DNA from: Apostichopus japonicus
Taxonomy: Eukaryota; Echinodermata; Holothuroidea; Aspidochirotida; Stichopodidae
NCBI RefSeq assembly: GCF_037975245.1
Contig: NC_092569.1
Span: 17,589,501 to 17,653,500 of the forward strand
Reading direction: 5' to 3'
DNA length: 64,000 nucleotides
Positions 1,644 to 60,342 of this stretch are shown in pieces. The stretch's first letter is position 1; each line of letters starts with the position of its first letter. The position numbers and the translations under genes were made by a program. The notes under the pieces were generated by a model, which made no database searches, was not told the origin of the DNA, and was given only the letters and a program-made list of their open reading frames with translations.

Positions 1644-2130
1644 CTACTGATGGCTATTGATAAACAGTAGATAATTGTGACTAGCAGGCAGGCAAATCTG
1701 AATGATATTAAGAGCCCGTTTAGACGCAAAACACATAAAGAAAAGGAATGTTGCTTTTGTTTAATTCCGTATAATTAACAACGCATTTAACCTATCCTTT
1801 TTCCTCTTAACACAGATTCACCCTATTTCTTCTACCAAAAGCCAGAATACCCCAAGGACTGTCACGAAGTCTTCCAAAAATGTGTGGGCGATTCTTCCAA
1901 TGGTGTTCACTTTATACAACCATATGGATATCCGGAACCATTTGAAGTTTATTGTAACAATACTGTAGACTCGGGAAATTGGATAGTAAGTAAAATGTCG
2001 TTCTGGTCCGTTAACTCGAAAAGTTGTTGGGAATACCTTCCTACATAACGAACATCGAAGATGATTGTTAGATATGCAGCATTTTGTTAATGTATTCGGA
2101 AAGGAACTCTACCCCACTGAGACGATAGAG

Positions 2131-2168
2131 ATTTAGAGAGAGAGATATAGAGAGAGAGAGAGAGAGTG
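2131..2168. repeat. (AG)n-rich simple repeat
   Basis: Purine-rich GA repeat in intron 3 of gene 1, followed by further G/A-rich sequence to about 2215. Confidence 0.8.
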
Positions 2169-2745
2169 GTGGAGTGAGAGGTTGACAGAAAGAGGAGGAG
2201 TAAGAGGTGGAGAATTTGCCCCTTTGGTTCCTTTCTATAATTTTGCCGGATATGTTTTATAATACCATCATAAGTCGCATTAGCACTAACGTTTATTGAA
2301 CTTTATTGAATCTTTATTGCTTCGGTTTTTAATATTCGGTCCTTGGATATCAAAGACCGTCAAATATTATTTCTTCGTTTTGTATCAAGGGTATTTTACA
2401 TTGTTTAGCAAGTATGTTGTATGTTCAAGCGTTCTTAGGCAATTACAATTCTAGAAATTACATCAAAAATCTAATTATGCAAACGAATATTATTGGTGCA
2501 ACCGTGCATGCGCTTGCAACCGTACATGCGCTTTTACATATATGATTACTGTCACATTATTTTTTTTCATATTCAAGGTTTTGCAACGTCGTTTAGATGG
2601 CGGTGTCGACTTCAATCGAGACTGGAACGACTACAAACAAGGCTTTGGTTTTTTACATCGCGAATTTTGGCTGGGTAACGAGAAGCTTAGTTACATCACC
2701 AATCAAAGAGACCATGAGCTCCGAATAGATTTTGTGTCCAAGACA

Positions 2746-3112
2746 CAGTGGCGTAGGAAGGTACTTTTGGTTGGGGGGGCTGAAGACTGAAGGCCGGCCT
2801 GGGGGAGGGGTCTAAGGGGAGGGGGTGTCCCCCTCCCCTTTTGATTTTTTTGCATTTCCAGGTGGCCTCAGATGCAATTTGGTGCAATATAGCACACTTC
2901 AACACCCACTCCATTTTGTAAACTTAATTTTGTATTTTCACCTGGCCTTAGATGCAATTTGGTGCTCCAAATGAGATTTTTTTTTCTCATTTAGAAATGA
3001 AAAAGGGGTTTTCTGACTTGCGAACCGGGGGGGCGGAATGATACTTCCGCCCCTCCACATTTTTCACTGGGGGGCTGGCGCCCCCCCAGCCCCCCCGGTT
3101 CCTACGCCCTTG
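2746..3112. mobile_element. hAT-like MITE inserted in exon 4 of gene 1
   Basis: A 367-bp non-coding element. The left end reads CAGTGGCGTAGGAA and the inverted right end CAAGGGCGTAGGAA, 12 of 14 matching. The flanking 8 bp CCAAGACA occurs at 2738-2745 and again at 3113-3120, a perfect target-site duplication. An 8-bp duplication with CAGTGGCGTAG-type ends is the pattern of hAT-family non-autonomous elements. The interior has runs of G on the left and C on the right and contains no transposase. The coding sequence reads straight across the empty site (FVSKT to GDPYF), so this is a clean insertion into an exon. Confidence 0.9.
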
Positions 3113-3230
3113 CCAAGACAGGAGATCCATACTTTGCAAAGTACAACTTATTTCGACTGAGTGACGAACAGTCAATGTACCGACTTATTGGGCTTGGTGA
3201 CTATGATGCGTTCAGTACAGTAGGTGGGTT

Positions 3231-3234
<4 letters not shown>

Positions 3235-3279
<45 letters not shown>
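3235..3279. repeat. (AT)n microsatellite
   Basis: Pure AT repeat starting a few bases after the exon-4 donor of gene 1. Confidence 0.93.
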
Positions 3280-3280
<1 letters not shown>

Positions 3281-4493
3281 GCAATAGCGACATATCTGTG
3301 ACTAAATAGCTTTGACTTCCGAATAAATAAACAAACTAAGGATGTGGATCAATTCCTGTCTTAACGAGGAAGCTTCTTAATATGTACACATTTTGTATTT
3401 TGAAACATTGCATGGTGACTTACATTAATACTCACAATATAACCACTGTAAATTTATGATGTAGACTGCATGATAGATTGAATACAGAAGGTTTAGCTTA
3501 AACATTAGTAAATTAGAATAACACAACCACCCCTCTTATTCCGTTCCTTGCCAAGATAATCGAGCTTATTGCACAATACATTCAACCTAATTAACGTAAT
3601 GACAACAATATGTTATAACCCGAATTAAGGAAACGATCCATGTAATACCTGGGAACTGGGAAATGTGGTTCGTGCTGCGGGCGGTTCTCGATCTCCCTAT
3701 CCCATACTGCTCCGTTGTTTTCACATTCTCTCCCTGGTATATATTTCTTTACCTCTCAAGAGTTCAAACATCTTGTAATCACTATCATCCGTCATTTTGT
3801 TTTCCTGATATGTTACGTTATATATGATTATCTTTAGCCGAGTCACAAGAAAAGGGTATATTTTGCTTCTGTTTTAATTGATGTAATGAAAAGTTTTACA
3901 TGAGTTATATTATTTGATTCCCATTTTTTCTCGCACATCACTAAGAAAACTACGACTAGAGAATTTTTTTTTACATTTGAGTTGATCCTTCTTCACAGGT
4001 CACGATGCCTTCAGATACAACAGAGGAATGCCATTCTCTACTAGAGATCGTGACAATGACCGTCATTCTTCATCTCACTGTGCTGATCTTCATAGAAATG
4101 GTTGGTGGTTTGATTCTTGCTCTTGGGCCTACCCCAATTTACCTTGGGGTGATTCACCACACTGGCTGCATTTTCCAGGTGGAAACAATAACATTTGTTA
4201 CATAGATATGAAGATACGACCATTGCTGTAAAAGGTAAAAGGATCGAAAACAGCGGCTGGTGAAGTGAACTGACAGTGCGATGAACACGTTCTTGACTTT
4301 TAAAAGATTGAACACAGGTTTACACAGAATTTACGCAGAAAAAAAAAATAATCAGTTAGTTGTGCTCAGATTTGTTTACTGAGCATGGAATTTGTTTTGT
4401 TAAATACCTTAAGCCACCGTTCCCCTCAGTACTTCTTCTCTCAGTTAAGTTTGTTTAATGTAATATTATGTGCTATATCAACCCCATTCTAAT

Positions 4494-4499
4494 AATAAA
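4494..4499 (+). other. Candidate polyadenylation signal, gene 1
   Basis: AATAAA about 265 bp after the stop codon, in AT-rich sequence. Confidence 0.5.
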
Positions 4500-7400
4500 T
4501 AATACCGAAAATACGTGCTAGTTACAATTCCTTTCTCGCTTACGTTTAGGTGACATTTGAAACCTGATGACCATAAAGCACGAATTCAAAAGTGTAGAAG
4601 TTGCACAAATCTGTCTTCTTTCAACTAGTTACATGGGTTTGGGTAGAGAAAGGAAAGCTAAGACCTCAGTTTTAAAAGGAAAACAAATCATGTCTTGTAT
4701 GTGAGTATCAGTAAATTCAACATTTGGTCTACATAAAAATAATTTGTAAGATAATTCTTTGAATTTCTAAAATCTGAAAACAGAATTTTTTTCTTCAAAA
4801 ACTCAATATTTGTCATATATTTCTCAAATATTGCATTGATACAGCTAACAATATAATTGCACCAGATTATTGCTTGTTTCTCATTTAAAAACAAATACAG
4901 ATTGAGATTATCATGTGGACTAGAGCGCTTAGGTCATTAGAAATTCCTTACGTTCCGTTAGGCTATGTTCCGTTTGTGGTTTGGTTGAAATTATGGAAAT
5001 CAAAGAGGGAATCCATAAATCGATAATGTCATATGATATCCCCAATAATATTAAATATAATTTCGAAGGATCATTTCATATTATCATGTAACTTTCTAAT
5101 CTAATAAACGACTAAAGTTGAATGTTACTTCGTTTTTTGTTTTGTTTTCTGGTCACATTTAATTTTTATGAGGTCTATAACGCATAATCAAAATGCCATT
5201 CAAGAGAGTAAAATATATTAGATAAGCATTTATTTTATATCCTGGTCAACCATAATCAAGAAAACAAGCAGAGACACCACTTCACCTGTAACATTCATCA
5301 CGGTGACCGAACATCCAGCAGATCAACCTCACACATGTTAGACTTAGACAATTATTATCGGTTACAACTTTTGAAGACCATGTTTTATTCGTTGTTTGTC
5401 AGGCACCGCCCAGTGGCGGTTACAGACACCCCCCCCCCCTCTCACACTGGCACCCTTATTGGCACCTACAGAAAGACGAGGACCGGCAAATTTTCTTAAT
5501 ATTATACATATTTTACTCTTAAATCGATGAATTTTCGCTGCGTGAGAGTTGTATCATGGTCGAAGCTCCTCACCTTTTGCGTTGCTCTATCCAAATAACG
5601 CTACATCACAATCAGTATTGCAAAATGGCATTTTATTCGGTCTGATCTGTTTTACTTAGTTTTGTCCTATTGGAATTGATTCAAAAACATTACAAATTTT
5701 GTCTGTAATAAAGGATACATGTTTTACTACAATAACAGCATGACTTGTAAACCGAAGAGTTCGGCTGAGCGAATGAGTAGGTTATGTGTTTATGGAATGA
5801 ACGGGAGCTGACCGGTCTGTGAGGCGAGCAGCTACGAATATACGTACATCTATCTGGTAACCCTTTCTGTATAGGAAACACGTGTTGACCAATTCTCTAA
5901 GAACGTGACAATTCTGATATTTTCATTTTAATTTAACAAAGGGTTTCCCTGCTGAATAATTTAATAATAAGATCATATGTTGTTCATGTTTTATTTATTC
6001 CAAAATATGTTTAACCTTGTTGCACAAATCATGTTGGTTTTTTTTTTTGGATTCTTCGTTAAAAACAATGGCAATTTCTAGTACATGAACATACTTAAGA
6101 AAAAGGATCCATCTAAGCCCTCTTCTGAGAGCAAAAATGTATCAAAGGGAAGGAGGCAAACCCTTCCCATTAAAACCCTCCCCAAGGACGGCCATTCAGT
6201 TAAATAATGAAATTGATAGCAAACGTTCCATATATGCCCACTTCTCAGAGCAAACATGTCTCAGAGAGGTAGAGGCACATCCTCTCCATTAGACCCCCCC
6301 CTCCTTCCCCAGGACGGCCATTCAGTTGCGCCCGTATTGAAATTCCTGGATACGCCACTCGCCGCTTGTGTGTTCACAAAGCCATTCCACGTAAGATAGC
6401 TTGAAACCACGCAACTAGTTACTGTTATGAATTCAGTTGTTGAACTCCCGAAACTTCACGAACTTGCTTAGCCCTATTATCAGTTCATCTTCAAATAGCA
6501 TTGTCTTCATATAAAGGAATTGCTTAGATGAATTTACCTGACCATTTTCATATGCCGGACAAGGTGAGTTTAGGTTGCAAAGATTTAAAAGTAGTTTACA
6601 GAGAGGGTTCAGAGGTTTGTGATTAGGTTGATTTTATTAAGGAACAGTAGGCATATATCACTGATGCTGGCATAAGCTGTACCCGAGAGGTTGATATATA
6701 GCAGTAAATTGTACAATGCATGGATGGAGGACTATATGGACACTTTGATGCAAGGAGATTCATTACTTACATTATTTATTCAATATTCACAAACTTAGAT
6801 GAAATAAGGAAAATGGGCAAAGTGATTCAGATAATTTTCAAATTGGCGAGATCACACTAACAAGACAAAGTGCCAAAAATGGACAATGGAGGAAATATTT
6901 TAATTTGCGCGTTATTAACAATAATTTCATAATTGGCGCTCGATCTCTCGAAACAGAACCAATTTGGGAAATCTCAAGAACATTTGACTGTGATTTTTTT
7001 TTTTTATAAAGTTTGAATGAACATTGATTAGTGAGGTTGATAAATCACAAGTTATCCGAGTTAAGTGTCTGAAAGCGTTGTTAAATTACTGAGCTTACAC
7101 ATTTAGAAAGCTGTTTTATAGTGAGAAGACATTATTCACAAGAAGCATAACTATGTCCAATCATATGAGGATTGTTTTTTCTTCTGTCTTTTAATGCACT
7201 GATGCCTTGTCAACTTGGAATTAGAGTAGTTTAAAAAAATAGTTGTATATAATACCGGTGAATTGAATTATATTAGATCCATATGTTGCAAGCACTTTTT
7301 GAATTAATCTTATCACAATGTTTTTTTTTTATGATATCTATTTAAAAGATTCTTGTCTCTTCACTAACATGATAAGGCACTTTTACACGATATAGCACAA

Positions 7401-7735
7401 TAAGGCACAATATTTTTCAAATAAGGACATGGTGTTTCAAAGCTCAACATCGGAAACCACATAACTGGTGACACTGGTCAATTCAAGCCAATGGAAATTA
7501 ATTTAAATCATGATTGGGTTAATTCTATTCAAACTGTTCACATATCCCTCTGCAATAGAAGCCTTTCATCATAAAGAGTCCTGTTGATTGGGCTAGAAAG
7601 GGATATATCCTTAGATAGACACTGAACGCTCACAAATATAATACATAACATATTATTCGTGTACGGTTGTCTATAAAACATGACAACGTTGAAGGCGTTA
7701 AAGTTTCCTGCTATAATCTACAATCTTTAGAAAAT
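4500..7735. other. Intergenic region between genes 1 and 2
   Basis: AT-rich and without a convincing gene. It holds a C-run next to CAGTGGCGG at about 5411, which may be an old element end, and a degenerate tandem duplication near 6112-6328 followed by GGATACGCCACT, also resembling an element end. No FReD exon was found. Confidence 0.6.
6112..6328. repeat. Degenerate tandem duplication, about 120-bp period
   Basis: Two related blocks (about 6112-6207 and 6233-6328). Each has a CTTCTNAGAGCAAA-like start, a purine-rich middle, a C-rich stretch and the shared end GGACGGCCATTCAGTT. Probably part of an old repeat element. Confidence 0.6.
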
Positions 7736-7911
7736 GAGGTCAATGGTACAAAATGGATCTTCTCCACTACGGTTGTTAGGAAGCCATGTATATATTAATA
7801 AACATGTCACTCAAGCGTTAACTTCTATCGACAAGATTTACGATAATAGTTTCATTTCATCTTGAGCTGTTACCCTGAAAGCATCTATAGTAACCAGGAC
7901 ACCTTGGGAAG
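7736..7911 (+). promoter_or_regulatory. Putative proximal promoter and 5'UTR of gene 2
   Basis: Contains ACGGTTGTTAGG at 7769-7780, 143 bp before the ATG. The same 12-mer lies 131-134 bp before the ATG of genes 4, 5 and 6, although the rest of this upstream sequence differs from theirs. A TATATATTAATAAA stretch follows at about 7788. The stretch ends in CTTGGGAAG before ATG, similar to CTCGGCAAG in the sister genes. Transcription start is not determinable. Confidence 0.4.
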
Positions 7912-17764
<9,853 letters not shown>

Positions 17765-18326
17765 TAGAGCAGGTGACATTTCGATGCAGTTTGGTTTTGA
17801 AGTTTATCATATCTTTAACAACGCAGAGCACCAATCAACTTACACCGACGTATGAAGTATAAATTATGATACATTTTAAAATAATCCAATGAATTTTTTC
17901 TTGTTTGATTTTAAGTTTAAACTAACGAATATAGTGTCAGTAATTCGCAAATACTCTTGTCCACCAATTTTTAACCTCTTATCATTTATCAAAGATACAT
18001 GGTTAAACAAGTTACCAAGTCGTTATTTGAGACAGCATTTTTAAAGATTTAGTTAAAGAACAAGGAGATATAGAACTCTTATTAACACAATTATTGTGAT
18101 GACCAATTCTCTCAAAACTAGTCATAAGAAAACCTACTAACTGAAAACAAATTGCCTCTTGACGTTTAACATCAAGACTTCTGTGTTTGTTTCGCTCTTG
18201 ATGTGTTTTGGATATAACCATTTCAAATTAACAACGATATTCAGTCAGAATCATCAAAAGGCTTTGTTTTACAAATTGGTGGTACTAAGAAACACTTTAG
18301 TGCTTTATTCTGTTACTACATGCAGA

Positions 18327-18932
18327 ATACGGTATAATATGAAATTGGAAATGACCCAATTGCAAACTTAATTATCAGAAATGTACATTCTTAAAGTCAA
18401 CAAAAAGTATGCAGTTGCGGTTATATATGGTATACAACATTATAATAGGATTAATCACTGATATTGTAAATACTAAGTCAAAGATGTGTTACTGCAAGAT
18501 ACGAACGTCACGTTACATATAGTACATTGGCTTTCTTCGGTATTTTGAAATTTGACAATCATCGTCCAAAACTAGCCAGTATTACTTATATCGTTACATA
18601 CAACCACATTATGTTGGCAAAATATTGGGGACGTAAGTATTCAACCAAATTTGGGTAAACCTTTGCCCCAAACAAGTCAAATACACACGATAAATACGCA
18701 CTTATCCAACCAAAAAAATTAGAGTAAACGTTTGCCACAAAACAAGTAAAATAAAGTCAATAGGTTTCCAGTGCTATGCAAAATATTTGCCAAACTTTAT
18801 TACAGTGCAACATACGGTATAATATGAAATTGGAAAGGACCCAATTGCAAACTTAGTTATCAGAAATGTACATTCTTAAAGTCAGCAAAGCATATCCAGT
18901 TCCGATTATATATGGTATACAACATTATAATA
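18327..18932. repeat. Direct repeat pair in intron 4, 485-bp spacing
   Basis: A block of about 120 bp (18327-18449) recurs at 18812-18932. Both contain ACGGTATAATATGAAATTGG, then CCCAATTGCAAACTTA and end TATATATGGTATACAACATT. The equivalent pair is present in intron 4 of gene 5 (from 43448 and 44056). In gene 4 only the second copy remains intact (from 32083). Confidence 0.8.
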
Positions 18933-19142
18933 GTAGACTATCTCTTCGAAGAATAGCATATCTTGATAAACGAGAAAATAATGCAATTTCAGCCGTTTAT
19001 TTGTCCTTAATAAGAAAATAAACATTTAAAAAAACATATACATTAGCCCTATGTTTTAATATTCATTTGATTCCTTACATGTTAACACAGCGTATAATTA
19101 ATTAACATTTCTAATCAATTTCGTTCTTTTATTTTATTGTAG

Positions 19143-19381
19143 GTTACGATGCTTTGCCTTACAACAAAGGAATGGCTTTCACAACAATAGATCGCGACAA
19201 TGACCTTTATTGTGCCAACTGTGCTAGTGGTTATAATGGTTGGTGGTATAAAGGCAGTCCAAGTTACTGCTCTTACACTTATCCCAATTATCCATGGAGT
19301 ACTGGTCCATATTGGAATAACTTTCCCGGAGGTAATTACAACATTCAATATATAGAGATGAAGATACGTCCAGTTGAATAA
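19143..19381 (+). CDS. Orphan FReD exon 5 (gene 3), 239 bp
   Basis: A full last exon with a TAG acceptor in front (TTTATTGTAG then GTTACGATGC), an open frame in the expected phase and TAA at 19379-19381. It encodes the C-terminal part of the domain: YDALPYNKGMAFTT, DRDND calcium site, NCASGYNGWWYKGSPSYC loop (15 residues between cysteines), NFPGG and IEMKIRPVE. Exons 1-4 are absent upstream as far as gene 2. No disabling change is seen. Compared with sisters it has Ile for Arg before DRDND and an extra Cys (LYCANC). It may be a dead remnant or an alternative last exon for gene 2, whose exon 4 ends in the matching phase. AATAAA follows at 19505-19510 and 19656-19661. Confidence 0.75.
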
Positions 19382-19776
19382 AGAAGAAAAGAAAAAAAGG
19401 TCAACACAGCTGTATGAAGATCGACTTTACATGGAAGCAACTGAAAAGCAATTTAAATTGGTGAACATGATTTTACTAAACTGACGTCAAAGCTCATTTT
19501 GGAAAATAAACGTAGATGCAGAAGCCTTCATCGATGGTTCTTAATTCAGTTCTACTATGCATAAAGACGTCAAAGAATATGTGTGTTTTATAACAGCAGT
19601 TCGCTTTAGTTTGCTTAATGTCTAAACAGACTCATGCTTATTATTTAATGAAGATAATAAAATTGTATCGTAAATTTAAAGAACATATTCTTCTTGTTAT
19701 TAAAACATGTTTTTAAAGTAGACTACTCTATTAAAAATAAATCATACCTTTGCAATTGGCATCAGATTATGGCTTT

Positions 19777-26384: not shown

Positions 26385-29300
26385 ATGCATCTTTTTATTT
26401 CATTCTGTATTTTCGGAGCTTTTGTCTCAAGTCTCCAAGTGTCAGGAAACACAATGGTAAGTTTCTTATCTGTTCATTTCATAGAATGCTTCATTTTGTA
26501 TTGAAACTTTAACTATATTACCAAACATTAAATTGTTGTTGTCATGATGTGATAGAAACTGAGTGATTTAGATTTTTAAGTTGTATAAATTGCCGTCCGT
26601 CCTTAATGTTTTTTTTTTCTGCAATGCATTCGTTTTAATTTTATTTCCAAACTGTTAACATTTTCTGGTAGTTGAGTTAATTAACGAACAACTGAACAAA
26701 CTTAAAGAAAGTTAAACGTTTTTTTTTTTTAACTGTCTGATGAATCTCGATCGATTGATAGTTACAACTCATTGAGGATTAATTTATCTGAAAACTCAAT
26801 TCGGATTTAATTTTCTGGTAGTACATTATCTTTTTAGTTCAGGAAGGTCGCATCATGAACGATGGTGTTAAAGGGATAAAACCTCAAAGGACCTAAAGTG
26901 AGCGAAAAACATGAGAGTCAACTAGTAGAGCGTTACAGTTGATAGTTGATGTTACAGTTCTGTGTGTAATCGAATTATGGCTCAGATTGAGCATCCGAAA
27001 ATTACAAACAATCATGTTTGGTAGACTTTAAACCAGATTGTGTAATGTAGAGGTTTAAACCGGTCCATCACGTTCGTATTTTCATTAATTCATACTAACC
27101 CTACGACTACTAGAGCAAACTGATCGAAGGGAAAAATTTTGAAGAACAGATCAATTCATGGTTGTTACAACATGTACTAATAACCGAAACAAGCATAACC
27201 GTTCTTGCAATCGTAAAAGCTTTACCTATACAGAAGAACATCGTTGACACTTAATATAGTGTTCTTCTAAAAACATTTTATAATTTATTTATCAGTTTAA
27301 AAGAAATACTTCTCTCTTTTCTTCTCTCTTTATTTAAATTATAAAATAAAATATTTTACTCGGTGGCACATATGATTATTAAAAAAAAATTATGTATATA
27401 ATGTCTAATATCTAAAACATTTTCGAACAGTATCGGCTGTTTCCTTTAAATTACCTTTGTAAATTTCACAACAATATTACTAAACTTCATTCAGTACCTT
27501 CGCAAAATAATCAAAATATACTTAATTTTCTCATGTTGCGATGTATTACTTGCAAGAGGATTTTTAAAATATAATATTTTATTCGATGACACATATTATT
27601 AGGAAAAATATATCTATACAATGTCTCATATCTAAAACAATTTTCGAAAAGTAGCAGATAATTCCTCCAAAATAGCTTTGTAAATTTCACTGCAATGTTA
27701 TAAAACTTTATTCAGTACCTTATCAAAATCATTGAAATTACATTTAAACTTAAACAGATTTGTTTTAATTTATGTCTCATGTTGCGATGTTTTACCTGTA
27801 AGAAGATTTTTAAGTAATATTAAAAACATTGGCAATCAAACACGTGGTTGATATAAAATTTTCTAAGTTATGAAAACGTATGATGCGATAGTAACTTTAA
27901 ATTCAACAAATCGAGGTCGTTTGTGTAACCATCCATTAACGTTGACATGGAACTTGATTGTTTCTCTATACTTTTTAGAATAAAGTTACGCGTTAACTCT
28001 GTCTCTATGATAACGCCATACCCTTGATATTACCTTTGGTCAGTAGGTATATCTTTATACCCTTTGATATTACCTTTGGTCAGTAGGTATTTCTTCTAAA
28101 CATTATCTTTCATTTTTCATTAACTCTCTATGACCTTTGCATTATGTGCCACTACTATCCTGTAAACTTTCAATCTTTAACAGTACTATATGAAGCAAAA
28201 TATGTTGTCTACTAAACAGAATTACATCTAATTTAACGTCTCTTTAAAGAGTTTAAGAGTATTACAAATCTCCCAAAATATATCTTAATATAGTATTTAG
28301 ATTTATTTTTCTTCGAAACATGACTCACAACGTGCCAAAAGCTTTACGCATCATAACTAACTTTAATTCAAAATGAATAATTGATAAGCAATGGTAACAA
28401 TGTCAATAATATAGATTACCAATATTATCAATACTATGAAGAATTACAAGTTTTAGTTTTATTATTGTTTTTTTTTTGTTAGAAATTCCATAAAATTTAT
28501 TTGATTTTTTTCCGCTTTATGTGCAAAATATTAAGGGCAACTGATATTAGGTCCCATAATAGTTGTATGCTACTTAAGTTTTACTCACCCCCCCCCCTTA
28601 ACTCATAGTATAAACACACTGGACCTATGTTAATGAGCCGATTACGTGGTATTATAGATTGCTATTACAGTCGTGATTTCGCTTAGTTGTAAGAAAAATA
28701 AAAATGACTGAACTTTAAAACTTTAACGTACTGGCATTATTGTTTATAATTGTCGTTATCTTCAACTGTAGCTTTAGCTTTGAAGAATAACGTAGGAATT
28801 TGCTATTTTCGTTAAATTGTATTAGCTAACTATACACAAAGGTCGAATATTTCCCATACCATTATTTTGCTTTTCTGAAAGATATCCGTTGTTTAGATTA
28901 AACTTTACTGAATGTGTATCAGATTTCAATCATCCGTTGAAAGAAATAACGTTGGTAAAGATCGCTTTTATTTTTTATATTTTTAATATTATTCTTTTGA
29001 AGTGACAAGTAAATTCTTGTTATACTGAGAAACATAATAATAGGTCATGTTGTAAAAAAAAACACAACTTCGAATTTTATTAAGATTCAAGTGAAATAAT
29101 AATGAGCACAATTCAATTTGTCCCGTGAAGTTATGTTTCCTCTTTAATTTATGATGGTTCTCCTATAAAAGAAATCATTGCTTTTTATATTCTCTCACAC
29201 ATTTTGTTCCATATTGTATGAAAGCCAAGAACTTTGCAACAAAGAACTAAAGAAGCTTTAAAAGGGAGCTTCTCATAGTCTCATATTGAAGCTGCATCTA

Positions 29301-32300
29301 TAGATCTCTGTAACAATTCAAGATATATATATAGTTCGCAAGTATCGTAGGAGTTTGCGAAGGTGTTGGACACTCAGCCTACATTGGTGGAGCTGCAAAA
29401 TTTAGTAGAGATCGGTATATATTTGATTTATCTTGGAGTCAAAATAACCTTGTTTTCATTTAGTACGGCAATACTTGCCTCTTCTCACATGCATATGCGA
29501 TTTGGTAAAAGTTAATTGTTTAGTCTAAATATAATATTGAAGTTAAGTATTCCCCTTCCGTGTGCTTATTTGATACCTTCCATTTAACAGACTTTCTGCA
29601 ATTGATTTTGACAATTTTAAAGTGAAAGTCACATATCTATGTAGGCAATTTTGCTCAATTATTCAAAATTTCATCATTCAATTGGTGAAGGTAAAAGTAG
29701 AAGGTTTTGATTTTTTTTCGAATGATTTGATATTTGTTAAATCAAGCGTATTGAGTTTATTAATTACTCTTAAATTACATTTAATTTGGTACCAAAAAAA
29801 GATGATGATGTCCTTGTTTATTATTTAAAATCTTAATTGCTTATTACGTTTAAAAGTGTTGTAATTTTTGATATGATTGTTTGCGACCGGTGTAATTCGC
29901 TTGACTGTTAAACATATTCTCTACAATACAGGACATGGAGAGAAATGAAGGTTTCACAAGGAATAAGAGAAGTACTAATTCAGGTAAGAAGGTGAATTTA
30001 TTTTACTGTGTTAATGACCAATTAAATACAAAACTAATGAATTGTTGATTCTACTGGAGTGCATGTAGTAGCCTTGTTTGCAACGGTGGTAGTGGTGTGA
30101 AAAACGGACAAGGCAGAGTTACCGGTGAATTTCCGTCAACAGAGCATGAAAACAAGGACTCATGTTGGAGAAGAAAATATGTATATTTTTTTCAGATAGT
30201 AACAACTTTGAACAATTTGTTGTACTTTCACAGATTCTTCTTACTTTTTCTATCAACAACCTGACTACCCTCGAGATTGTAAGGAAGTCTTTGAACAATG
30301 TGACGGGGAATCTTCAGACGGGGTCTACCTCATACAACCAGATGGATACCTTGAACCATTTCCTGTGTATTGTAACAACACTGTAGATGGTGGCAATTGG
30401 ATGGTATGATTTTAACTCTGTCTACATTAGCTTCCCAGCTTTCACAGACGACTGTAAAATAAAATAAAATGAATTGGTTTATTTCCATTGAATTGACTCG
30501 TAAACTTTCGTTTAGTATGAGTGCATGTTTACAAATGTTCTATACCTGCAAAAAAGAACAACGTAACATGATGCCTATGATTTATGAAGATCGATGTGAA
30601 CGTACTTTAAACATTAAGAAATACTCATGATGCTTAATATTAAAACATGTTCTTGATACATATACAGGTTATACAGCGACGCATGGACGGTGGTGTAGAA
30701 TTCAATCGTGACTGGGAGGATTATAAAAACGGTTTTGGCTTTCCACATCGCGATTTATGGCTGGGTAACGAGAAACTAGCTTACATTACAAATCAGAAAG
30801 ACTACGAAATAAGATTTGACTTTGTTTCAAAGAGCGGTGATCCACATTTCGCTAAGTACAACCTTTTCCGTGTGAGCGATGAAGGAACTTTGTACAAGCT
30901 GGTGGATGTTGGAGACTACGACTCGACAAGTACACTAAGTAAGTATTTTATTTCATAGTACTGATGTATGCTATGTTGTTTGATAGAGTGTTTATACAGG
31001 CTACATGTGCTACACTGAGCGAGAGACGTTTGTGATGCGCCTAGATTGCCGTAACTCCTGAAATTGACATATAATGCACTATAAATTGGAATTTTCCAGC
31101 TTCTCGCAGTAGGTACTGTTTATAGAAATGACACCGTTCAAAAATATTGTTTTATACACATAAAAAGAAGAAAAAAGCAAATGTGACTTGTACTTGGCTA
31201 AAATGGACTGCAGTATTTAAATATACAGTTTTAATATCGGTTCCCTGGCAAGAGTATCTCCTTCAGTATATCCTTCAATATGTAACTGGCATTGAAAATA
31301 TATGTGCAAATACCACAAACAGAACAGGTGACATTTCGATGCAGTTTGGTTTGAAGTTTATCATATCTTTAACAACGCAGAGCACCAATCATCTTACACC
31401 GACGTATGAAGTATAAATTATGATACATTTTAAAATAATCCAATGAATTTTTTCTTGTTTGATTTTAAGTTTAAACTAACGAATATAGTGTCAGTAATTC
31501 GCAAATACTCTTGTCTACCAATTTTTAACCTCTTATCATTTATCAAAGATACATGGTTAAACAAGTTACCAAGTCGTTATTTGAGACAGCATTTTTAAAG
31601 ATTTAGTTAAAGAACAAGGAGATATAGAACTCTTATTAACACAATTATTGTGATGACCAATTCTCTCAAAACTAGTCATAAAGAAAACCTACTAACTGAA
31701 AACAAATTGCCTATTGCCTATATGGTATACAACATTATAATAGGATTAATCACTGATATTGCTGCAAGACACGACCGTTACGTTACATATAGTACATTGG
31801 CTTTTTCGGTATTTTGAAATTTGACAATCATCGTCCAAAACTAGCCAGTATTACTAATATCGTTGCATACAACCAAATTTTGTTGGAAAAATATTGGGGA
31901 CGTAAGTATCCAACCAAATTTGGGTAAACCTTTGACCTTAAACAATTAAAATACACACGATAAATACGCACTTATCCAACCAAAAAATAAGAGTAAACCT
32001 TTGCCACAAAACAAGCAAAATTAAGTCAATAGGTTACAAGTGCAATGAAAAATATTTGCCCAACTTTATTACAGTGCAACATACGGTATAATATGAAATT
32101 GGAAAGGACCCAATTGCAAACTTATTTATCAGAAATGTACATTCTTAAAGTCAGCAAAGCATATCCAGTTCCGATTATATATGGTATACAACATTTTAAT
32201 AGTAGACTATCTCTTCGAGGAATAGCATATCTTGATAAACGTGAAAATAATGCAATTTCAGCCGTTTATTTGTCCTTAATAAGAAAATAAACATTTAAAA

Positions 32301-32640
32301 AACATATACATTAGCCCTATGGTTTAATATTCAATTGATTCCATACATTGTAACACAACGTATAATTAATTAACAGTTCTAACCAATTTCGTTCTTTTAT
32401 TTTATTGCAGGTTACGATGCTTTGCCTTACAACAAAGGAATGGCTTTTACAACAAGAGATCGCGACAATGACCTTAATTCTGCCAACTGTGCTAGTGGTT
32501 ATAACGGTTGGTGGTACAATTATCATTGTTCTTACACTTATCCCAATTATCCATGGAGTACTGGTCCTCATTGGCATAACTTTCCCGGCGGTAATCACAA
32601 CATCCAATACATAGAAATAAAGATACGTCCAGTTGAATAA
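26385..32640 (+). CDS. FReD gene 4, complete fibrinogen-like secreted protein, 264 aa
   Basis: Join 26385-26456, 29932-29983, 30234-30403, 30668-30938, 32411-32640; 795 bp, all GT-AG, phases 0,1,0,1. Residues 1-21 are a signal peptide (hydrophobic FISFCIFGAFV, likely cut after VSG). The linker, residues 25-41, has RNKR at 34-37, a furin-type motif. Domain landmarks: C57, C64, C88; sequon NNT 89-91; RRMDGG 102-107; GFGF 120-123; LWLGNEKLAYIT 128-139; DRDND 205-209 (calcium site); C215 and C228 with 12 residues between; NFPGG 245-249; end MKIRPVE-like with Ile for Met. Exons 3 and 4 are nearly identical to genes 5 and 6. Role inferred from the family: secreted recognition protein of coelomic fluid or tissue; ligand unknown. 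The number of domain cysteines is odd (five), so one may link two chains. Confidence 0.95.
27334..27800. repeat. Tandem duplication in intron 1, about 223-bp period
   Basis: The block with CGGTGGCACATA (27361) recurs as CGATGACACATA (27584), each followed by AATGTCTNATATCTAAAAC, a cytosine-poor stretch, TTCAGTACCTT and CATGTTGCGATGT. The duplication is also present in intron 1 of genes 5 and 6, so it predates the gene copies. Confidence 0.8.
28021..28098. repeat. Short tandem duplication, about 37 bp, unit B only
   Basis: TTGATATTACCTTTGGTCAG then TAGGTAT occurs twice in a row here. Genes 5 and 6 have one copy at the matching place (about 39112 and 51258). Confidence 0.75.
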
Positions 32641-37657: not shown

Positions 37658-44609
<6,952 letters not shown>

Positions 44610-46960: not shown

Positions 46961-47373
46961 AATTCTAAAGTATTGCGATAAACAAATGGACCTGTAAACC
47001 ACCGTATCGAAGAGTCCACAAAGACATTCCTCTACTACTTGTACAATTACCATTGAGATTTCTACAAACAAGGAGTACGGCTGTCGATCAACGTTGAAAG
47101 AATTCTAAAGTATTGCGATAAACAAATGGAACCAGTAAAACCACCGTATCGAAGAGACCACTAAGACATTTTCCTACTACTTGTACAATTACCATAGGGA
47201 TTTCTACAAGAAAAGGAGTACGGCTATCGATCAACGTTGGAAGAATTCTAAAGTATTGCGATAAACAAATGGGACCTGTAAACCAGCGTATCAAAGAGAC
47301 CACAAGGACATTACCCTACTACTTGTACAATTACCATAAGGATTTCTACAAATAATGAGTACAACGTTGAAAG
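46961..47373. repeat. 142-bp minisatellite, 3 copies (unit C)
   Basis: Copies start at 46961, 47101 and 47244; the last is shortened before AATTGTCGTGAC. Confidence 0.93.
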
Positions 47374-47785
47374 AATTGTCGTGACTTTCAAAAAGCAATG
47401 GTCTTTAAATGACGTGAATTTGCTCCTCCAACTTACAACTAAACCTACAAATATAAACTTTACCGATTGATGACTTTGTCGTGACGATGGTCACAGGTGT
47501 GAAATCACTGAGTTCGAAAGTCCATATTTATGTTAGTTATAAAATACGTCCTTGAACACTAAACATTTTTAAACTTGACGTAAAATTTAGCCATGTGTGA
47601 TATCTCCGTCAGTACAGCTTAACAACTACATTTGTCCTAAGTAAATGCATGATATTTATTCTTGATAAATTAACATTCATATCGCAAATTAATTAACGGT
47701 CTAACCGCCATGTTAGTAAACAAATAATGGTATCTGTTGGTAAAAAAAAGGTTGATGATGCTATAAAAAGTAGAGGATGAACTTC

Positions 47786-47906
47786 GGTTCCAGATCTGAT
47801 ATAGTTGGCAAGGAGTCACAAGGATGAGGGACGTCCGGTTTGTTGTCATTGAACTATAGGCCATCATCTCGGCTAGTGCTTGTCGTTCACTAAAGTCACT
47901 CCGATA
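47786..47906. other. 121-bp block specific to unit C
   Basis: Units A and B read GAACTTC directly into AACAATGATCC. Unit C has 121 bp between these points. No terminal repeats or coding pattern seen. Origin unknown: insertion in C, or loss in the ancestor of A and B. Confidence 0.6.
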
Positions 47907-49389
47907 AACAATGATCCATCCAGAATCGATCTTTATGAACAAAACTGAACAATGTCACGTCACCAAAGATAATGGATAATTCTGCACGCCGAGGATAGAA
48001 CTAACGAGCAAATGGAGACCAGTTCCTTGATCCAGCAAGAATCACGATGATTTGCCGCTTTAAACAAAGTAGATTTTAACATCAAACTAAATTTCTGTAT
48101 TCTGGAAATACCAACTAGGCATATCCACCTCAAATATTCCGTTTCGTCTCGAATCTCCAAAAGAAGTTTATGTGGAATACGGGGATACAGCGAAAGGCAC
48201 ACACAGACAATAACGGAGTGATAATGTATTCATCTAAAAGCCAAAGCCAAGTCCCTCTAACTACAAAACCCGTAACAATAGTATTTTACAGCATTGAATA
48301 ATTAAATACATTCATTCATTCATAAGAACCAAAAGTATGAAAGTAACATTGTAAACTCTCAGTTTATGGCCTATCGAAAACCACGCCATCCTTACCAATT
48401 TCAGTGACAATTAAAATCATGACGTTTGCAAAGGTATTTTTACTTTTAAAGATTCGCTACATGTGTTACATTGATCAGGAAACTCCAATACATATGTTAT
48501 TGCAAGAATTAAGAAAGCTAAAAGAATATATACCTTCATTTTCACTGCATGGCCTTCAAAAGTATCTTAATCACCTGCATTCTACATTCTACATGTTTTT
48601 GTCGTAATTTTCATAAAAAAAAAAACCATAAAAAAGTAAACTACTAGTATGTGCATTGCAGGGAAATTTCTACTATTCTTTAACATGAGATTGACACAAA
48701 AGACGCAATCATCTTACGATCTTTCAGCAAAAATGTAGTTAGACTTTCCTTTCTAGCACAATAAATGTGTTCTTCACTCCCATGGTATTACAGGGGAAAG
48801 CAGTAGCAAAGGGTGGGGATGTCAATAGAGTGTTAGGGGTTATGAGGGTGGTGTAATATCCAGCTCATCTTTTCCGCAAGTTGCGAAACTGCGTAGAAAT
48901 GTATATTTGTAGGTGGCTTGAGTCTTCGAAATATCCACCACATCAGGAATAAAGAGAAGAACTTCACGCTGGCTATCCATGTTACCATTATAAAGCTTCT
49001 CCTTTTATCGTCAAGACTAAAGACTAGAAGGGATGAAATAATATTTCAGTGCGATCATGCTGCCGAATATACGAGGCATCTTCATAGCGTTATAAAATTA
49101 GTATCGACGGAGGAATAGGAAAGTTAAAATAATATCTTATTTGTTGTGGGAAACAAATTATTAATAACATGTATTAATTTTTCAAATGAAATGTCACATG
49201 AATTTTTTTTCATATTTGACGATTGAACAAGAACCTAGTGAAAGAGGTTAAGGCCTATTCTGTTTTGTAAGGTACAATAAAATGTATGCAATAGATTATG
49301 ATATATATTAAACGCTTATTATTTTAAATTTTACTTCGTTAATGAGTTTACCTTTTCTTTCACAATGATATGGTTAACATGTTCTATTT

Positions 49390-49616
49390 GATGTACGGTT
49401 GTTATTGGAACTCATCTACATAACTAGAACATACAGCTATCATATTAAAAGTATATGGTATTGCACATGATGGAACTTAACCTTTACGGTTGTTAGGGAA
49501 TGATCATCTATCCCAGTGTGTCATTCACAAGACACCTCTATGGGGGAAAATTTGAGATTGAATATCACTTCTTCTAGAGCTCTCAACCTGAAAACAGCCC
49601 AGAACAACTCGGCAAG
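49390..49616 (+). promoter_or_regulatory. Putative proximal promoter and 5'UTR of gene 6
   Basis: Same block as before genes 4 and 5; ACGGTTGTTAGG at 49486-49497, 131 bp before the ATG (small deletion near AACAGCCC). Confidence 0.42.
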
Positions 49617-52600
49617 ATGCATCTTTTTATTTCATTCTGTATTTTCGGAGCTTTTGTCTCAAGTCTCCAAGTGTCAGGAAACACAATGGTAAGTTTCTTA
49701 TCTGTTCATTTCATAGAATGCTTCATTTTGTATTGAAACTTTAACTATTTTACCAAACGTTAAATTGTTGTTGTCATGATGTGATAGAAACTGAGTGATT
49801 TAGATTTTTAAGTTGTATAAATTGCCGTCCGTCCTTACTGTTTTTTTTTTTCTGCAATGCATTCGTTTTAATTTTATTTCCAAACTGTTAACATTTTCTG
49901 GTAGTTGAGTTAATTAACGAACAACTGAACAAACTTAAAGAAAGTTAAACGTTTTTTTTTTAACTGTCTGATGAATCTCGATCGATTGATAGTTACAACT
50001 CATTGGGGAATAATTTATCTGAAGACTCAATTCGGATTTAATTTTCTGGTGGTACATTATGTTTTTAGTTCAGGAAGGTCGCATCATGAACGATGGTGTT
50101 AAAGGGATAAAACCTCAAAGGACCTAAAGTGAATGTAAAACATGAGTCAACTAGTGGAGCGTTACAGTTGATAGTTGATGTTACAGTTATGTGTGTAATC
50201 GAATTATGGCTCAGATTGAGCATCCGAAAATTACAAACAATCATGTTGGGTAGACTTTAAACCAGATTGTGTAATGTAGCGGTTTAAACCGTTCCATCAC
50301 GTTCGTTTTTTCAACAATTCATACTAACCTTAAGACTAGTAGCACAAACTGATCGGAGGGAAAAATTTTGAAGACCAGATCAATTCATGGTTGTTACAAC
50401 ATGTACTAATAACCGAAACAAACATTACCGTTCTTGCAAACGTAAAAGCTTTACCTATAGAGAAGAACATCGTTGACACTTAATATAGTGTTCTTCTAAA
50501 TACATTTTATAATTTATTTATCAGTTTAAAAGAAATACTTCTCTCTTTGAAATATATGTATCGCCTTTCTTTAAATTATAAAATAAAATATTTTACTCGG
50601 TGGCACATATTATTAGTAAAAAATTTATGTATATAATGTCTAATATCTAAAACATTTTCGAATAATATCGGCTGTTTCCTTTCAATTAGCTTTGTAAATT
50701 TCACAACAATATTACAAAACTTCATTCAGTACCTTCGCAAAATAATCAAAATATACTTAATCGTCTCATGTTGCGATGTATTACTTGCAAGAGGATTTTT
50801 AAAATATAATATTTTACTCGATGACACATATTATTAGTAAAAAATATATCTATACAATGTCTCATATCTAAAACAATTTTCGAAAAGTAGCAGATACTTC
50901 CTCCAAATTAGCTTTGTAAATTTCACAACAATGTAATAAAACTTTATTCAGTACCTTATCAAAATAATTTAAATTACATTTAAACTTAAACAGATTTGTT
51001 TAATTTATGTCTCATGTTGCGATGTATTACTTGTAAGAAGAATTTTAAGTAAAATTAAAATCATTGGCAATCAAACACGTGGTTGATATAATATTTTCTA
51101 AGTTATGAAAACGTATGATGCGATAGTAACATTAAATTCAACTAATCGAGGTCGTTTGTGTAACCACGCATTAACGTTGACATGGAACTTGATTGTATCT
51201 CTTATATTTTTTAGATTAAAGTTGCACGTTAACTCTGTCTGTATGATAACGTTATATCCTTTGAATTTACATTTGGCCAGTAGGTTTTCCTTCTAAACAT
51301 TATCTTTCATTTGTCATTAACTCTCTATGATCTTTGCATCGTGTGCCAATACGATCCTGTAAACTTTCAATCTTTAACGAAACTATATGAAGCAAAATAT
51401 GTTGTCTACTAAACAGAATTACATCTGATTTAACGTCTCCTTAAAGATTTTAAGAGTATTACAAATCTCCCAAAATAGAGCTTAATATAGTATTTAGATT
51501 TATTTTTCTTCGAAACATGACTCACAACGTCCCAAAAGCTTTACGAATCTTAACTAACTTTAATTCAAAATGAACAATTGATAAGCAATGGTAACAATGG
51601 CAATGGTATCGATTACCAATATTATCAATACTATGAAGAATTACAAGTTTTAGTTTTATTTTTAGTTTGGTTTTGTTCGATATTCCATCAAATTTATTTG
51701 AATTTTTGTGCCGCTTTATGTGCAAAATATTAAGGGCAACTGACATTAGGTCCCATTATAGTTGTCTGCTAATTGAGTTTTACTCACCCCCCCCCCTTAA
51801 TTTATAGTAAACACATGTACTGGACCTATATATCTTAATAAGCCAAATACGTGGTATTATAGATTGCTATTACAGTCGTGATTTTGCTTAGTTGTAAGAA
51901 AAATAAAAAAGACTGAACTTTAAAACTTTAACGTACTTGGCTTTATTGTTTATAATTGTCGTTATCTTCAACTGAAGCTTTAGCTTTGAAGAATAACGTA
52001 CGAATTTGCTATTTTCGTTGAATTGTATTTAGTTGTACTATCTTTCCTGTTAGCTAACTATACACAAAGGTCGAATATTTCCCATACCATTATTTTGTTT
52101 TTCTGAAAGATATCCGTTGTTTAGATTAAACTTTACTGAATGTGTATCAGTTTTCAATCATCCGTTGAAAGAAATAACGTTTGTAAAGATCGCTGACGTT
52201 CACATATTTTTAATATTATTCTTTCTGAAGTGACAAGTGAATTCTTGTTATACTGAGAAACATAATAATAGGTCATGTTGTAAAAAAAAAAAACACAACT
52301 TCGAATTTATTAAGATTCAAGTGAAATAATAATGAGCACGATGCAATTTGTCCCGTGAAGTTATGTTTCCTCCTTAATTTATGATGGTTCTTCTGTAAAA
52401 GATATCATTTTTATTTTTATTCTCTCACACATTTTGTTCCATATTGCATGAAAGCCAAGAAAGTTGCAAAAAGGGAGCTTCTCATAGTCTCATATTGAAG
52501 CTGCATCTATAGATCTCTGTAACAATTCAAGATATATAGTTCACAAGTATAATCGGCGTTTGCGAAGCTGTTAGGACACTCAGTCTACATGGGAGCAGCT

Positions 52601-55600
52601 CAAAATTTAGTAGAGATCAGTATATATTTGATTTGTCTTGGCTTCATAACAACCTTGTTTTCATTTAATACGACAATACTTGCGTCTTGTTTGGTCAAAA
52701 TATGATATTGAAGTTAAGTTTTCCCTTGTATGTGCTAATTTGATACCTTGTATTTAACAAACTTTCTGCAATTAATTTTGACAATTTTGAAGTGAAAGTC
52801 ACATATCTATGTAGGCAATTTTGATCCATTAATCAAAATTTCATCATTCAAATGGTGAGGGTAAGAGTCGAAGATTTTAAAATTCTTTTCGAATGATTTG
52901 ATATTTGTTAAATCAAGCTTATCGAGTTTATTAATTACTCTCTAATTAAATTAAATTTGGTATCAAAAATGATGATGATGTCCTTGTTTATTATTTTAAG
53001 ACTTACTTGCTGATTACGTTTAAAAGTGTTGTAAAAGAAAATGCATTTTTTTTATTTGATTGCCTTGCGACCGTTGTTATTTTAATCATCGCTTGACTGT
53101 GTAATATTTTCTCTACATTACAGGACATGGAGAGAAATGAAGGTTTCTCAAGGAATAAGAGAAGTACTAATTCAGGTAAGAAGGAGAATTTATTTCACTG
53201 TGTTAATTACCAATTAACTACAAAACTAATAAATTGTAGATTTTACTGGGGTGCAAGTAGTAGCCTTTTTTTTGCATCAATGGGAGTGAAGTACGGACAC
53301 AGGCAGAGTTACCGGTGAATTTTTATCAACAGAGTATGAAAACAATTACTCATGTTGGAGAAGAAAAAAATGTATAAACCTGTCAAGAAATAACAACGTT
53401 TAACTATTTGTTGCACTTTCACAGATGCTTCTTACTTTTTCTATCAACAACCTGACTACCCTCGAGATTGTAAGGAAGTCTTTGAACAATGTGACGGGGA
53501 ATCTTCAGACGGGGTCTACCTCATACAACCTGATGGATACCTTGAACCATTTCCTGTGTACTGTAACAACACTGTAGATGGTGGCAATTGGATGGTATGG
53601 CTTAAAATATGTCTTTATTAGCCTCCCAGCTTACGCAGGCGACTCTAAAACTACACATTAATCAGTGTCTATCCATTGAATTCGCCGTGGAAAACTTTCG
53701 TTTATTATCAGTGTATGTTGACAAATTATATATACCTGCAAAAGAGAGCAACTTAGTAGTTACGATGACTATGATTTATACAGTTCAATGTGAACGTACT
53801 TTAAACAACAATAAAAACTCGTGATGCTTAATATTAAAACATGTTCTTGATACATACAGGTTATACAGCGACGCATGGACGGTAGTGTCGAATTCGACCG
53901 TGACTGGGAGGATTACAAAAACGGTTTTGGCTTTCCACATCGTGATTTATGGCTGGGTAATGAGAAACTAGCTTACATTACAAATCAGAAAGACTACGAA
54001 ATAAGATTTGACTTTGTGTCAAAGAGCGGTGATCCACATTTCGCTAAGTACAACCTTTTCCGTGTAAGCGATGAAGGAACTTTGTACAGGCTGGTGGATG
54101 TTGGAGACTACGACTCGACAAGTACACTAAGTAAGTCTACACAAGTGTCAATGGAAATTAGATATGTCTGTTTAACACACACAAAAATATTGTTAAATGA
54201 ACAAAACAAAAAAAGAGAAAATAGATACGACTAACAATTGGTTAAAACAGACTACAGTATTTAAATATATAGTTTAAGTATCGATACCAAGGTTCTTCTT
54301 CAATACCTGGCATTGGCATAGTAAATATCAACAAAAAGAACGGGATGGTTAAGTTTGGTTTGGAGATTTCAACATTATATTTCATTAAAACAGTGATTTA
54401 CTGACCACATAATACAAAACCGGAAAGTTAGGATCACATGCACGGGTCAAAAAATGCAACAAAATATAACATCATCATGCCTTCCTTGATGGATTATGAC
54501 AGGTCGGAAAATGTTTTTGGGGATATCGCATTTCTTTTATGAATTTTATAAGAATGAACCGTCAAACATTACATGACAGGTATTTGTGTATGTGGTTAAC
54601 TTTATCCATTCAAAACGTTTACTGCCATCAGTATTAAATAATATCAGATTCAGAGCACACAATACTACACAGAATATGGTATATTTAGAAATAATCCAAT
54701 AGTTGAACGTGGCTGGGACCTTATTCAGTCTAACTGAATCTTTAACATTTGTTTGCTTGCTTTGTTTTCTTTGTTTGCTTGTTTGCTTGTCTTATACGTT
54801 TCTCGTTATGAATAGAGAATGTCAGTATCACCAGTATTTCTGTCACAACATTTTATTAATTATGTATCATTGCTCGAAGGTACATGGTTAGTCAAGGTTC
54901 AAGGTCGTTAACTTTGGTAGCATTTCTAAAGATGTGGTTAAAGAACACGGAGACGTTTAGTTCATACAAGTACAAGTATTGTGATGATCAATGTACAACG
55001 CTATTAAACTAGTCATAAAACAGAACATACTAACTGAAAAAAATGTTGCCATTTGACATTGAACGTCCTTACTTTTTGTCTTCATAAAACTTGAATATGA
55101 ACATATTAAATGAAAAAAAATATATAAAATTCTTGTTGGAAAATTTGCGGTACTGAGAGACACTTTGCTGCCGTATTACTGTTACAGGAGGAGAGGAAAG
55201 GTTGCATTTTATAACCTGTATTGGCTTTGCTCGAATTTTAATATCGGACAATAACTACCAAACAGTTACACTTGTATTACTTAGATCATTATTTACACTC
55301 TAACTTTATTGGGAAACATTTAATCACACACTGGGTATGTAGAAATCCAAACAAAATTGGATAAAACCATTTACCCAAAGTAAGTAAAATGCCAAAAAAT
55401 AAGTACACATTATATCCAACCAAACATATGTGTAAACGTTTTCCCCAAAACATAGGCTTTTGGTTTTACCTTTTCTTGGTAGAATGTAAAACAATGAAGA
55501 GTTGTCGTACCTGAATTGGTCTAATAATCTTTTCTCTTCTTTGTACTTCATGACAGGTTACGATGCTTTAACTTACAACAAAGGAATGGCTTTCACAACA

Positions 55601-55804
55601 AGAGATCGCGACAATGACCTTAATTCTTCCAACTGTGCTAGTACTAGTTATAATTACTATGGTTGGTGGCATAAAGGCAGTCCAGGTTACTGCTCTTACA
55701 CTTACCCCAATTATAAATGGAGTAATGGTCCTCATTGGCATAACTTTCCCGGCGGTAATCATAACATCCAATATATAGAGATGAAGATACGTCCAGTTGA
55801 ATAA
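49617..55804 (+). CDS. FReD gene 6, complete fibrinogen-like secreted protein, 270 aa
   Basis: Join 49617-49688, 53124-53175, 53425-53594, 53860-54130, 55557-55804; 813 bp, GT-AG junctions, phases 0,1,0,1. Signal peptide 1-21, linker with RNKR at 34-37, then the fibrinogen-related domain to the C terminus. Exon 4 differs from genes 4 and 5 at only three residues (GS, ND, KR changes). Exon 5 is 18-21 bp longer: the loop between the last two cysteines is ASTSYNYYGWWHKGSPGY, 18 residues, close to the KGSPSY type of the orphan exon at 19143. The DRDND calcium site, WHNFPGG and IEMKIRPVE are kept. Intron 1 (3.4 kb) matches genes 4 and 5 closely, but intron 4 (1.4 kb) is shorter and diverged. AATAAA at 56002-56007. 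Ligand unknown. Confidence 0.95.
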
Positions 55805-60299: not shown

Positions 60300-60342
60300 C
60301 ATAATTTCACAATCCGTCCGCTACATTGTGACGACAGTACAG

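Follow-up and report, generated by a model that had tools for sequence, protein, structure and literature searches.

A length-variable pocket loop in exon 5 of a tandem fibrinogen-domain gene array in Apostichopus japonicus

Can a tandem gene array vary the ligand pocket of its products while their scaffold is kept alike? The question is raised by a stretch of 64,000 nucleotides of the holothurian Apostichopus japonicus (contig NC_092569.1, here C9; C9:17589501-17653500 of a single reference genome), referred to below as the window. The window belongs to a tandem array whose genes encode a fibrinogen-related domain (FReD), and all listed parts lie on the + strand. A preliminary description had noted in-frame length diversity in exon 5 and had proposed that the array diversifies ligand recognition on a homogenised scaffold. 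The observation was partly confirmed, being real with corrections, and its interpretation was partly supported. On the sequence evidence we lean, by a little, toward the reading that exon 5 is shuffled on a homogenised scaffold and that proteins with differing pockets would act as germline-encoded soluble recognition lectins.

In-frame length variation in exon 5

The window contains four intact five-exon genes, g2 (7912..14317), g4 (26385..32640), g5 (37658..44609) and g6 (49617..55804), together with g1, which is probably broken, a solitary exon 5 (the orphan), and g7, which runs past the window edge. The described range of exon-5 lengths, 227-251 bp in frame, was recounted exactly (233, 251, 239, 230, 227 and 248 bp in g1, g2, the orphan, g4, g5 and g6, respectively). 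The numbers of residues between the homologous conserved cysteines of the loop (12, 19, 15, 12, 11 and 18, in the same order) were also exact. Both loop cysteines, Gly-Trp-Trp and the calcium site are fixed across 22 aligned exons 5. The calcium-site motif D-x-D-N-D reads DRDND in all six window exons and in 19 of the 22, the other three having DRDNE. Defining the loop by "the last two cysteines" did not hold as a rule, because g1 carries one more Cys (NNNICYID), and in the orphan an additional Cys immediately precedes the loop.

Length variation falls mainly in two hypervariable (HV) segments, HV1, from the calcium site to Gly/Ala-Trp-Trp, and HV2, from Trp-Trp to the next Cys. In g4 the hypervariable stretch (32473..32529) consists of HV1 (11 residues), GWW, HV2 (4 residues) and Cys; in g6 (55619..55693) HV1 has 14 residues, including a three-codon insert AGT TAT AAT, and HV2 has 7. 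In the window array and a side array at 16.8 Mb, which together gave 21 distinct exons, HV2 has 3 residues in 10 exons, 4 in one, 7 in four and 10 in six. In all 18 distinct comparison exons from this genome (13 from canonical arrays and 5 from other FReDs) it has 3, and the canonical array at 25.45-25.61 Mb kept this length in the 10 loci read. The comparator arrays were picked from search hits, not randomly; L005, L007 and L008, which were among the first eight FReD loci and yielded no exon 5, were excluded from the HV comparison. In overlapping close pairs, 8 of 8 HV indels were multiples of 3, versus 26 of 121 in the flanks. The HV segments around the conserved Gly/Ala-Trp-Trp tolerate in-frame length change.

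The claim that length change is confined to exon 5 stood in a weaker form. It is concentrated in the loop region, where about 25 of 232 codons take up at least six of the nine internal length changes of exons 3-5 (a hand count on the alignment, with no test), but it also occurs elsewhere in exon 5 and in exons 3 and 4. Outside the loop, one codon is added after it in the g7 group and two in one 16.8 Mb gene. Exon 3, described as always 170 bp, has this length in all six window genes and, bounded by AG and GT, in 17 of the 20 genes examined within and beyond the window, but it is apparently 173 bp in three 16.8 Mb side-array genes, in which the AG lies three bases earlier. The constancy of exon 4 at 271 bp held for 16 of 19 uninterrupted copies, but not for g7 and two relatives (274 bp) nor for g1, in which the exon is interrupted.

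Exchange of exon 5 on a homogenised scaffold

Purifying selection on exons 3 and 4 is strong, and these exons are homogenised between copies, as had been proposed. The ratio of non-synonymous to synonymous divergence (dN/dS) was 0.104 for exons 3+4 (17 sequences) and higher, 0.263, for exon 5 (19 sequences). The class of codons with dN/dS = 1 held 5.6% of exons 3+4 codons versus 41% of exon-5 codons. Near-copies were removed from these codon models (m710, m80 and m585 for exon 5; m710 and m585 for exons 3+4). The introns 3 of g4, g5, m63, m74 and m92 are only 0.4-7% apart, and their introns 4 diverge by up to 47%, a value near the alignment limit. The exons 4 of g4 and g5 encode identical residues, as described, with 2 synonymous differences. 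Special homogenisation of exon 4 in this pair was considered and rejected, because the adjacent intron 3 also differs by only 3.8%, which indicates that the whole 5′ block is young.

The genealogies of the two gene halves were compared in 8 genes with approximately unbiased (AU) tests. Two trees were built, one from exon 3-intron 3-exon 4 and one from the end of intron 4, exon 5 and the DNA downstream, and each half rejected the tree of the other (p = 5.5e-5 and 1.5e-4 for the two halves), indicating exchange of exon 5 between copies. Mosaic pairs were found in both directions: divergence between g4 and m63 is 0.4% in intron 3 and 8.8% ahead of exon 5, and that between g5 and m51 is 27% in intron 3 and 0.3% ahead of exon 5. 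Moreover, a 33-nt loop cassette, of which the HV2 of g6 is a part, matches at 31 of 33 positions between the orphan and g6, versus 26 of 33 between g6 and its closer relative m74. Outside exon 5, the orphan and g6 are 51% different in the 300 bp before and 30% different in the 300 bp after. The sharing of this cassette despite divergent flanks suggests that exchange takes place inside exon 5 too.

Pocket position and rate of change of the loop

The loop had been placed beside the calcium site and the ligand pocket. Alignments to tenascin-R and ficolins, which are the closest solved chains to g4, gave a placement that matches FIBCD1. In the available part of the FIBCD1 report (PMC3908420), the Cys401-Cys414 disulfide, with 12 residues between the cysteines, links the calcium site to the acetyl site; the acetyl oxygen is held by the backbone NH of Cys414 and His415, and the S1 pocket comprises Tyr405, His415, Tyr431, Ala432 and Trp/Tyr443. 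By homology, the window loop would be the pocket loop, lining a FIBCD1-type acetyl pocket. However, the residues of this pocket are largely different. Across 22 exons the Tyr405 place has Tyr in 13, His in 7, Ser in 1 and Asn in 1, and the His415 place has Tyr in 11, Ser in 10, Ala in 1 and never His. The six window exons have Tyr (4), His (1) or Ser (1) at the Tyr405 place, Ser (5) or Tyr (1) at the His415 place, Trp at the Tyr431 place (6/6), Ser (5) or Gly (1) at the Ala432 place and Gly at the 443 place (6/6). These places were assigned by eye, pairing the cysteines in the way the tenascin alignment does; in the ficolin alignment the residues at this point are shifted by one. The S1 residue set of acetyl lectins of the ficolin/tachylectin-5 type is therefore not present in the window exons, where 4 of 5 positions are replaced, and with most pocket residues replaced an acetyl ligand is not predicted for the window proteins.

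Several results in the window weigh against selection for loop diversity. In 7 non-overlapping close pairs, the substitutions per bp were 0.089 in the non-coding flanks, 0.089 in HV, 0.059 in the rest of exon 5 and 0.027 in exons 3-4 (the last covering 5 of the 7 pairs). Codon models gave no sign of positive selection in this array, M2a being no better than M1a and its extra class lying at 1.0003. Within clades, the loop dN/dS was 0.29 (clade A) and 0.38 (clade B), and clade C was without non-synonymous loop change; the 16.8 Mb clade (clade D) showed 6 non-synonymous and 0 synonymous loop differences. Because the loop evolves at the intron rate, with dN/dS below 1 in clades A and B and no gain from M2a, selection for diversity is not shown in the window, and the claim that this array diversifies ligand recognition was not borne out there. 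The window loop looks like a stretch left free within an otherwise constrained protein, and it does not look accelerated.

The individual pairs behind these rates differ, with 11/57 in HV versus 24/598 in the flanks for orphan-g4, and 0/60 versus 43/596 for g1-m663. In overlapping pairs, HV had 0.108 substitutions per bp versus 0.093 and 0.094 in the non-coding flanks. These values, the orphan-g4 pair and the loop differences of the 16.8 Mb clade point toward diversification. The indels per kb in the 7 disjoint pairs were 12.1 in the flanks, 4.5 in HV, 0.9 in the rest of exon 5 and 0 in exons 3-4, where a 3-base "indel" was set aside since it was an internal TAG in n834 displayed as a gap and not a deletion. 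Faster indels in the loop than in introns were thus rejected with the disjoint pairs (4.5 versus 12.1) and also with the overlapping pairs (7.2 versus 10.5 and 13.2). Equal rates in exon 5 and introns, named beforehand as speaking against diversification, were found for loop substitutions, with fewer indels in the loop, so that this outcome counts against diversification of the loop segment; the rest of exon 5 was slower than intron.

The loop is rich in Tyr/Ser/Asn/Gly/Asp/His, with a share of 0.73 versus 0.30 when bases were shuffled freely, but versus 0.67 when codon positions were kept. Tyr/Ser richness as a special property of one array was rejected with the latter null (observed/expected 0.73/0.67 in the window, 0.83/0.83 in a sister array and 0.71/0.68 in canonical arrays). 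The Tyr share alone was 0.16 in the window array, 0.19 in the canonical arrays and 0.44 in the sister array, and it separates the sister array, not the window array.

This sister array lies at C9 17.80-18.53 Mb, 0.15-0.9 Mb from the window (L066, L067, L069 and L073-L090; 21 loci, 18 distinct). Length-variable Tyr-rich segments are found on both sides of Trp-Trp, with 44% Tyr in HV1+HV2 and TAT runs of up to six codons. Across 17 distinct exons, TAT:TAC was 134:20 in HV and 75:42 elsewhere in exon 5 (p 1e-5), and in L069/L084 and L082/L087 HV2 differs solely in TAT codon number. A frame-blind search of the genome for the pattern gave 20 matches, some nearly identical, with in-frame length in 20/20, and the reversed-pattern control gave 0; L076 failed to match. 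Of the 21 loci, 20 lack the canonical Cys1, and some have additional cysteines at other places. L091 and L092, beyond this array at C9:18.615-18.629 Mb, have a 23-residue HV1 rich in Tyr and Cys, for example with a TAT run between new cysteines, unlike their neighbours.

Evidence on diversification in the sister array points both ways. In 7 disjoint pairs (14 sequences; L079, L085 and L089 dropped), the differences per bp were 0.238 in HV1, 0.081 in the flanks and 0.074 in the constant exon (HV1 versus flank, Fisher p 6e-12), and all-pairs dN/dS was 1.33 for HV1, 0.85 for HV2 and 0.25-0.34 for the constant parts. M2a was preferred over M1a (2dlnL 26 and 29, p 2e-6 and 6e-7 with two trees; 17 sequences, L079 and L085 dropped), and so was M8 over M8a (p 3e-6 and 1e-5). 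With both trees, sites with dN/dS above 1 were placed in HV1, where Cys1 formerly stood, and directly downstream of the CDLN motif; one tree placed such sites in HV2 as well. On the other hand, HV2 (0.127 per bp) was not significantly above the flank (p 0.09, disjoint pairs), and in the same pairs dS in HV1 was raised as well (dS 0.215, dN 0.243, difference p 0.73), so that part of the HV1 excess comes from mutation, exchange or misalignment, not selection. Recombination also weakens the codon-model tests. The stronger form of the diversification idea fits the neighbouring sister array and not the window, acceleration being seen only at 17.80-18.53 Mb.

Explanations, related systems and gene structures

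In the reading that we favour, exons 3-4 would encode the scaffold and exon 5 the calcium and pocket part, including the loop joining the calcium site to the acetyl pocket by homology with FIBCD1. Triplet slippage and cassette exchange may create new loop lengths, and proteins with different pockets would make up a germline-encoded set of soluble recognition lectins. A wider proposal is offered tentatively, as one that we hold to be rather doubtful: holothurian FReD arrays may carry a germline hypervariable pocket flanking an invariant Trp-Trp, made up largely of TAT repeats in the sister array, in which slippage, single-step changes of Tyr (to Asn, Asp, His, Ser, Cys and Phe) and exchange on the homogenised scaffold would yield a Tyr-rich, antibody-like lectin repertoire without somatic rearrangement.

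Relaxed constraint is a realistic possibility, though on balance not a probable one. The ancestral acetyl pocket would have been lost in this subfamily, and the loop would drift, filtered for frame and fold alone. This agrees with the non-coding rate of loop substitution, with the 41% of exon-5 codons that fit dN/dS = 1 and the lack of need for a class above 1, with the replacement of the pocket residues given in the available part of PMC3908420 (His415 in all 22 exons), and with the premature stops in exon 5 of m51 and m673 and in exon 4 of n834. It is less easily reconciled with the unchanged cysteines, Gly-Trp-Trp and calcium site, with the above-neutral rates and the dN/dS class above 1 in the sister array, and with the composition kept by the loop, although this last point shrinks once codon positions are kept. 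A role in tissue remodelling or regeneration instead of pathogen recognition, with loop variation determining the choice of partner among matrix or cell-surface glycans of the animal itself, seems improbable to us. The available text of PMC5638244 reports a 21-gene tandem cluster of fibrinogen-related proteins (FREPs) up-regulated in visceral regeneration of A. japonicus, but this cluster could be any one of the many FReD arrays. Tenascins are indeed among the closest solved relatives, but similarity to tenascin is general to the FReD domain.

The orphan exon 5 (19143..19381, loop 15) raises the question of alternative last exons, since a g2-like gene could splice its exon 4 either to its own exon 5 or to a downstream orphan. 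The acceptor, phase and stop of the orphan are all intact, it lies 4.8 kb downstream of g2, and no exons 3-4 belonging to it were found between g2 and g4. A second orphan at C9:17680037 lies 6.6 kb downstream of m673, whose own exon 5 has a premature stop, and none of these exons was found in the 3.6 kb upstream of it. Each orphan is downstream of a g2-type gene and is a candidate alternative last exon. However, the two are near-identical, with 3 differences over about 1.5 kb compared, and as they are recent copies the open frame is no proof of function; we regard this explanation as quite unlikely. Mis-joined or collapsed repeats could also have produced apparent lengths, as tandem arrays are hard to assemble. 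Such an artefact is highly improbable, because every exon-5 length in the window keeps the reading frame and the splice sites are intact, several loop lengths occur in more than one copy, and the assembly, which we presume to be that of PMC10344927, was made with HiFi reads according to the available text of that source.

FREP expansion in A. japonicus, the same species as the window DNA, has already been published (PMC5638244); that account covers number, clustering and regeneration expression, and its available text is silent on variation in loop length, on exchange of exon 5 and on tyrosine repeats. FIBCD1, ficolins and tachylectin-5A have in common with the window the domain, the type of calcium-site motif and the disulfide loop beside the S1 pocket (PMC3908420, in the part available). 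The window gene models differ from them in having no visible collagen or transmembrane part and in the altered loop length of many copies; the Tyr405 place of FIBCD1 is occupied by Tyr in 13 of the 22 exons. Biomphalaria FREPs are expanded FReD genes too, and in the available part of PMC7588048 their variants arise from germline sources via gene conversion and point mutation. They carry immunoglobulin superfamily domains, and none was found in g2 and g4, for both of which PF00147 was the sole Pfam match. The SpTransformer (Sp185/333) proteins of sea urchins are not known to be related to FReD proteins. The analogy with them is our own: they come from echinoderm immune-type clusters with repeats and rapid diversification, as given in the available parts of PMC5103432 and PMC1988830. 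Searches of the open-access PMC literature showed no report of a hypervariable FReD pocket stretch. Should the pattern of the sister array be borne out in populations and at the protein level, it would represent a novel invertebrate route to recognition diversity, in which a coding microsatellite sits in the pocket of an ancient lectin fold and recombination shuffles exons. The genes g2, g4, g5 and g6 and the copies at 17.80-18.53 Mb are concrete objects for asking whether echinoderm FReD expansions are ligand repertoires.

The open reading frames of these four genes are intact in splice-consistent models and encode 263-271 residues. The exons are located at 7912-7980, 11192-11246, 11520-11689, 12184-12454 and 14067-14317 in g2; at 26385-26456, 29932-29983, 30234-30403, 30668-30938 and 32411-32640 in g4; at 37658-37729, 41173-41224, 41481-41650, 41915-42185 and 44383-44609 in g5; and at 49617-49688, 53124-53175, 53425-53594, 53860-54130 and 55557-55804 in g6. 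PF00147 (Fibrinogen_C) scored 192.6 bits in g2 (E 1.1e-56) and 168.5 bits in g4 (E 2.5e-49), the two that were scanned, against a cut-off of 22. All four proteins have a hydrophobic leader (4/4 by eye), a short linker and one FReD, and no collagen-like Gly-X-Y repeats were found by eye at their N-termini. Their products are apparently short secreted proteins with one fibrinogen C domain. The linker contains a motif encoded by exon 2, RNKRS in g4, g5 and g6 and RNRRS in g2, which we take to be a furin-like site.

Gene g1 is represented by exon 3 (1816..1985, from tblastn and splice sites), exon 4 (2578..3222) and exon 5 (3999..4231). It is probably a broken gene because a 367-bp insert (2746-3112), flanked by the 8-bp target-site duplication CCAAGACA, interrupts exon 4, which is uninterrupted in its relatives m663 and m710. 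The insert has inverted-repeat-like ends, with similar end motifs at 958 and 13980, and is presumably hAT-like, judging by the size of the duplication.

The genome contains very many fibrinogen-related exons, and C9 holds most of those listed; since 150 of 2731 first-look candidates were scored, the genome count is a lower bound. At the end of the window, g7 exon 3 (63045..63214) is present, with its exons 4 and 5 past the edge, and a broken-off fragment like the start of exon 3 (60253-60375) lies about 2.8 kb upstream of it. Copies of the g7-type exon 5 occur at C9 17585275, 17655600 and 17702996, spaced by about 70 and 47 kb, and copies of the g1 type (17593501, 17663569 and 17710814) recur in the same way, which suggests duplication of a larger block around units of about 12 kb.

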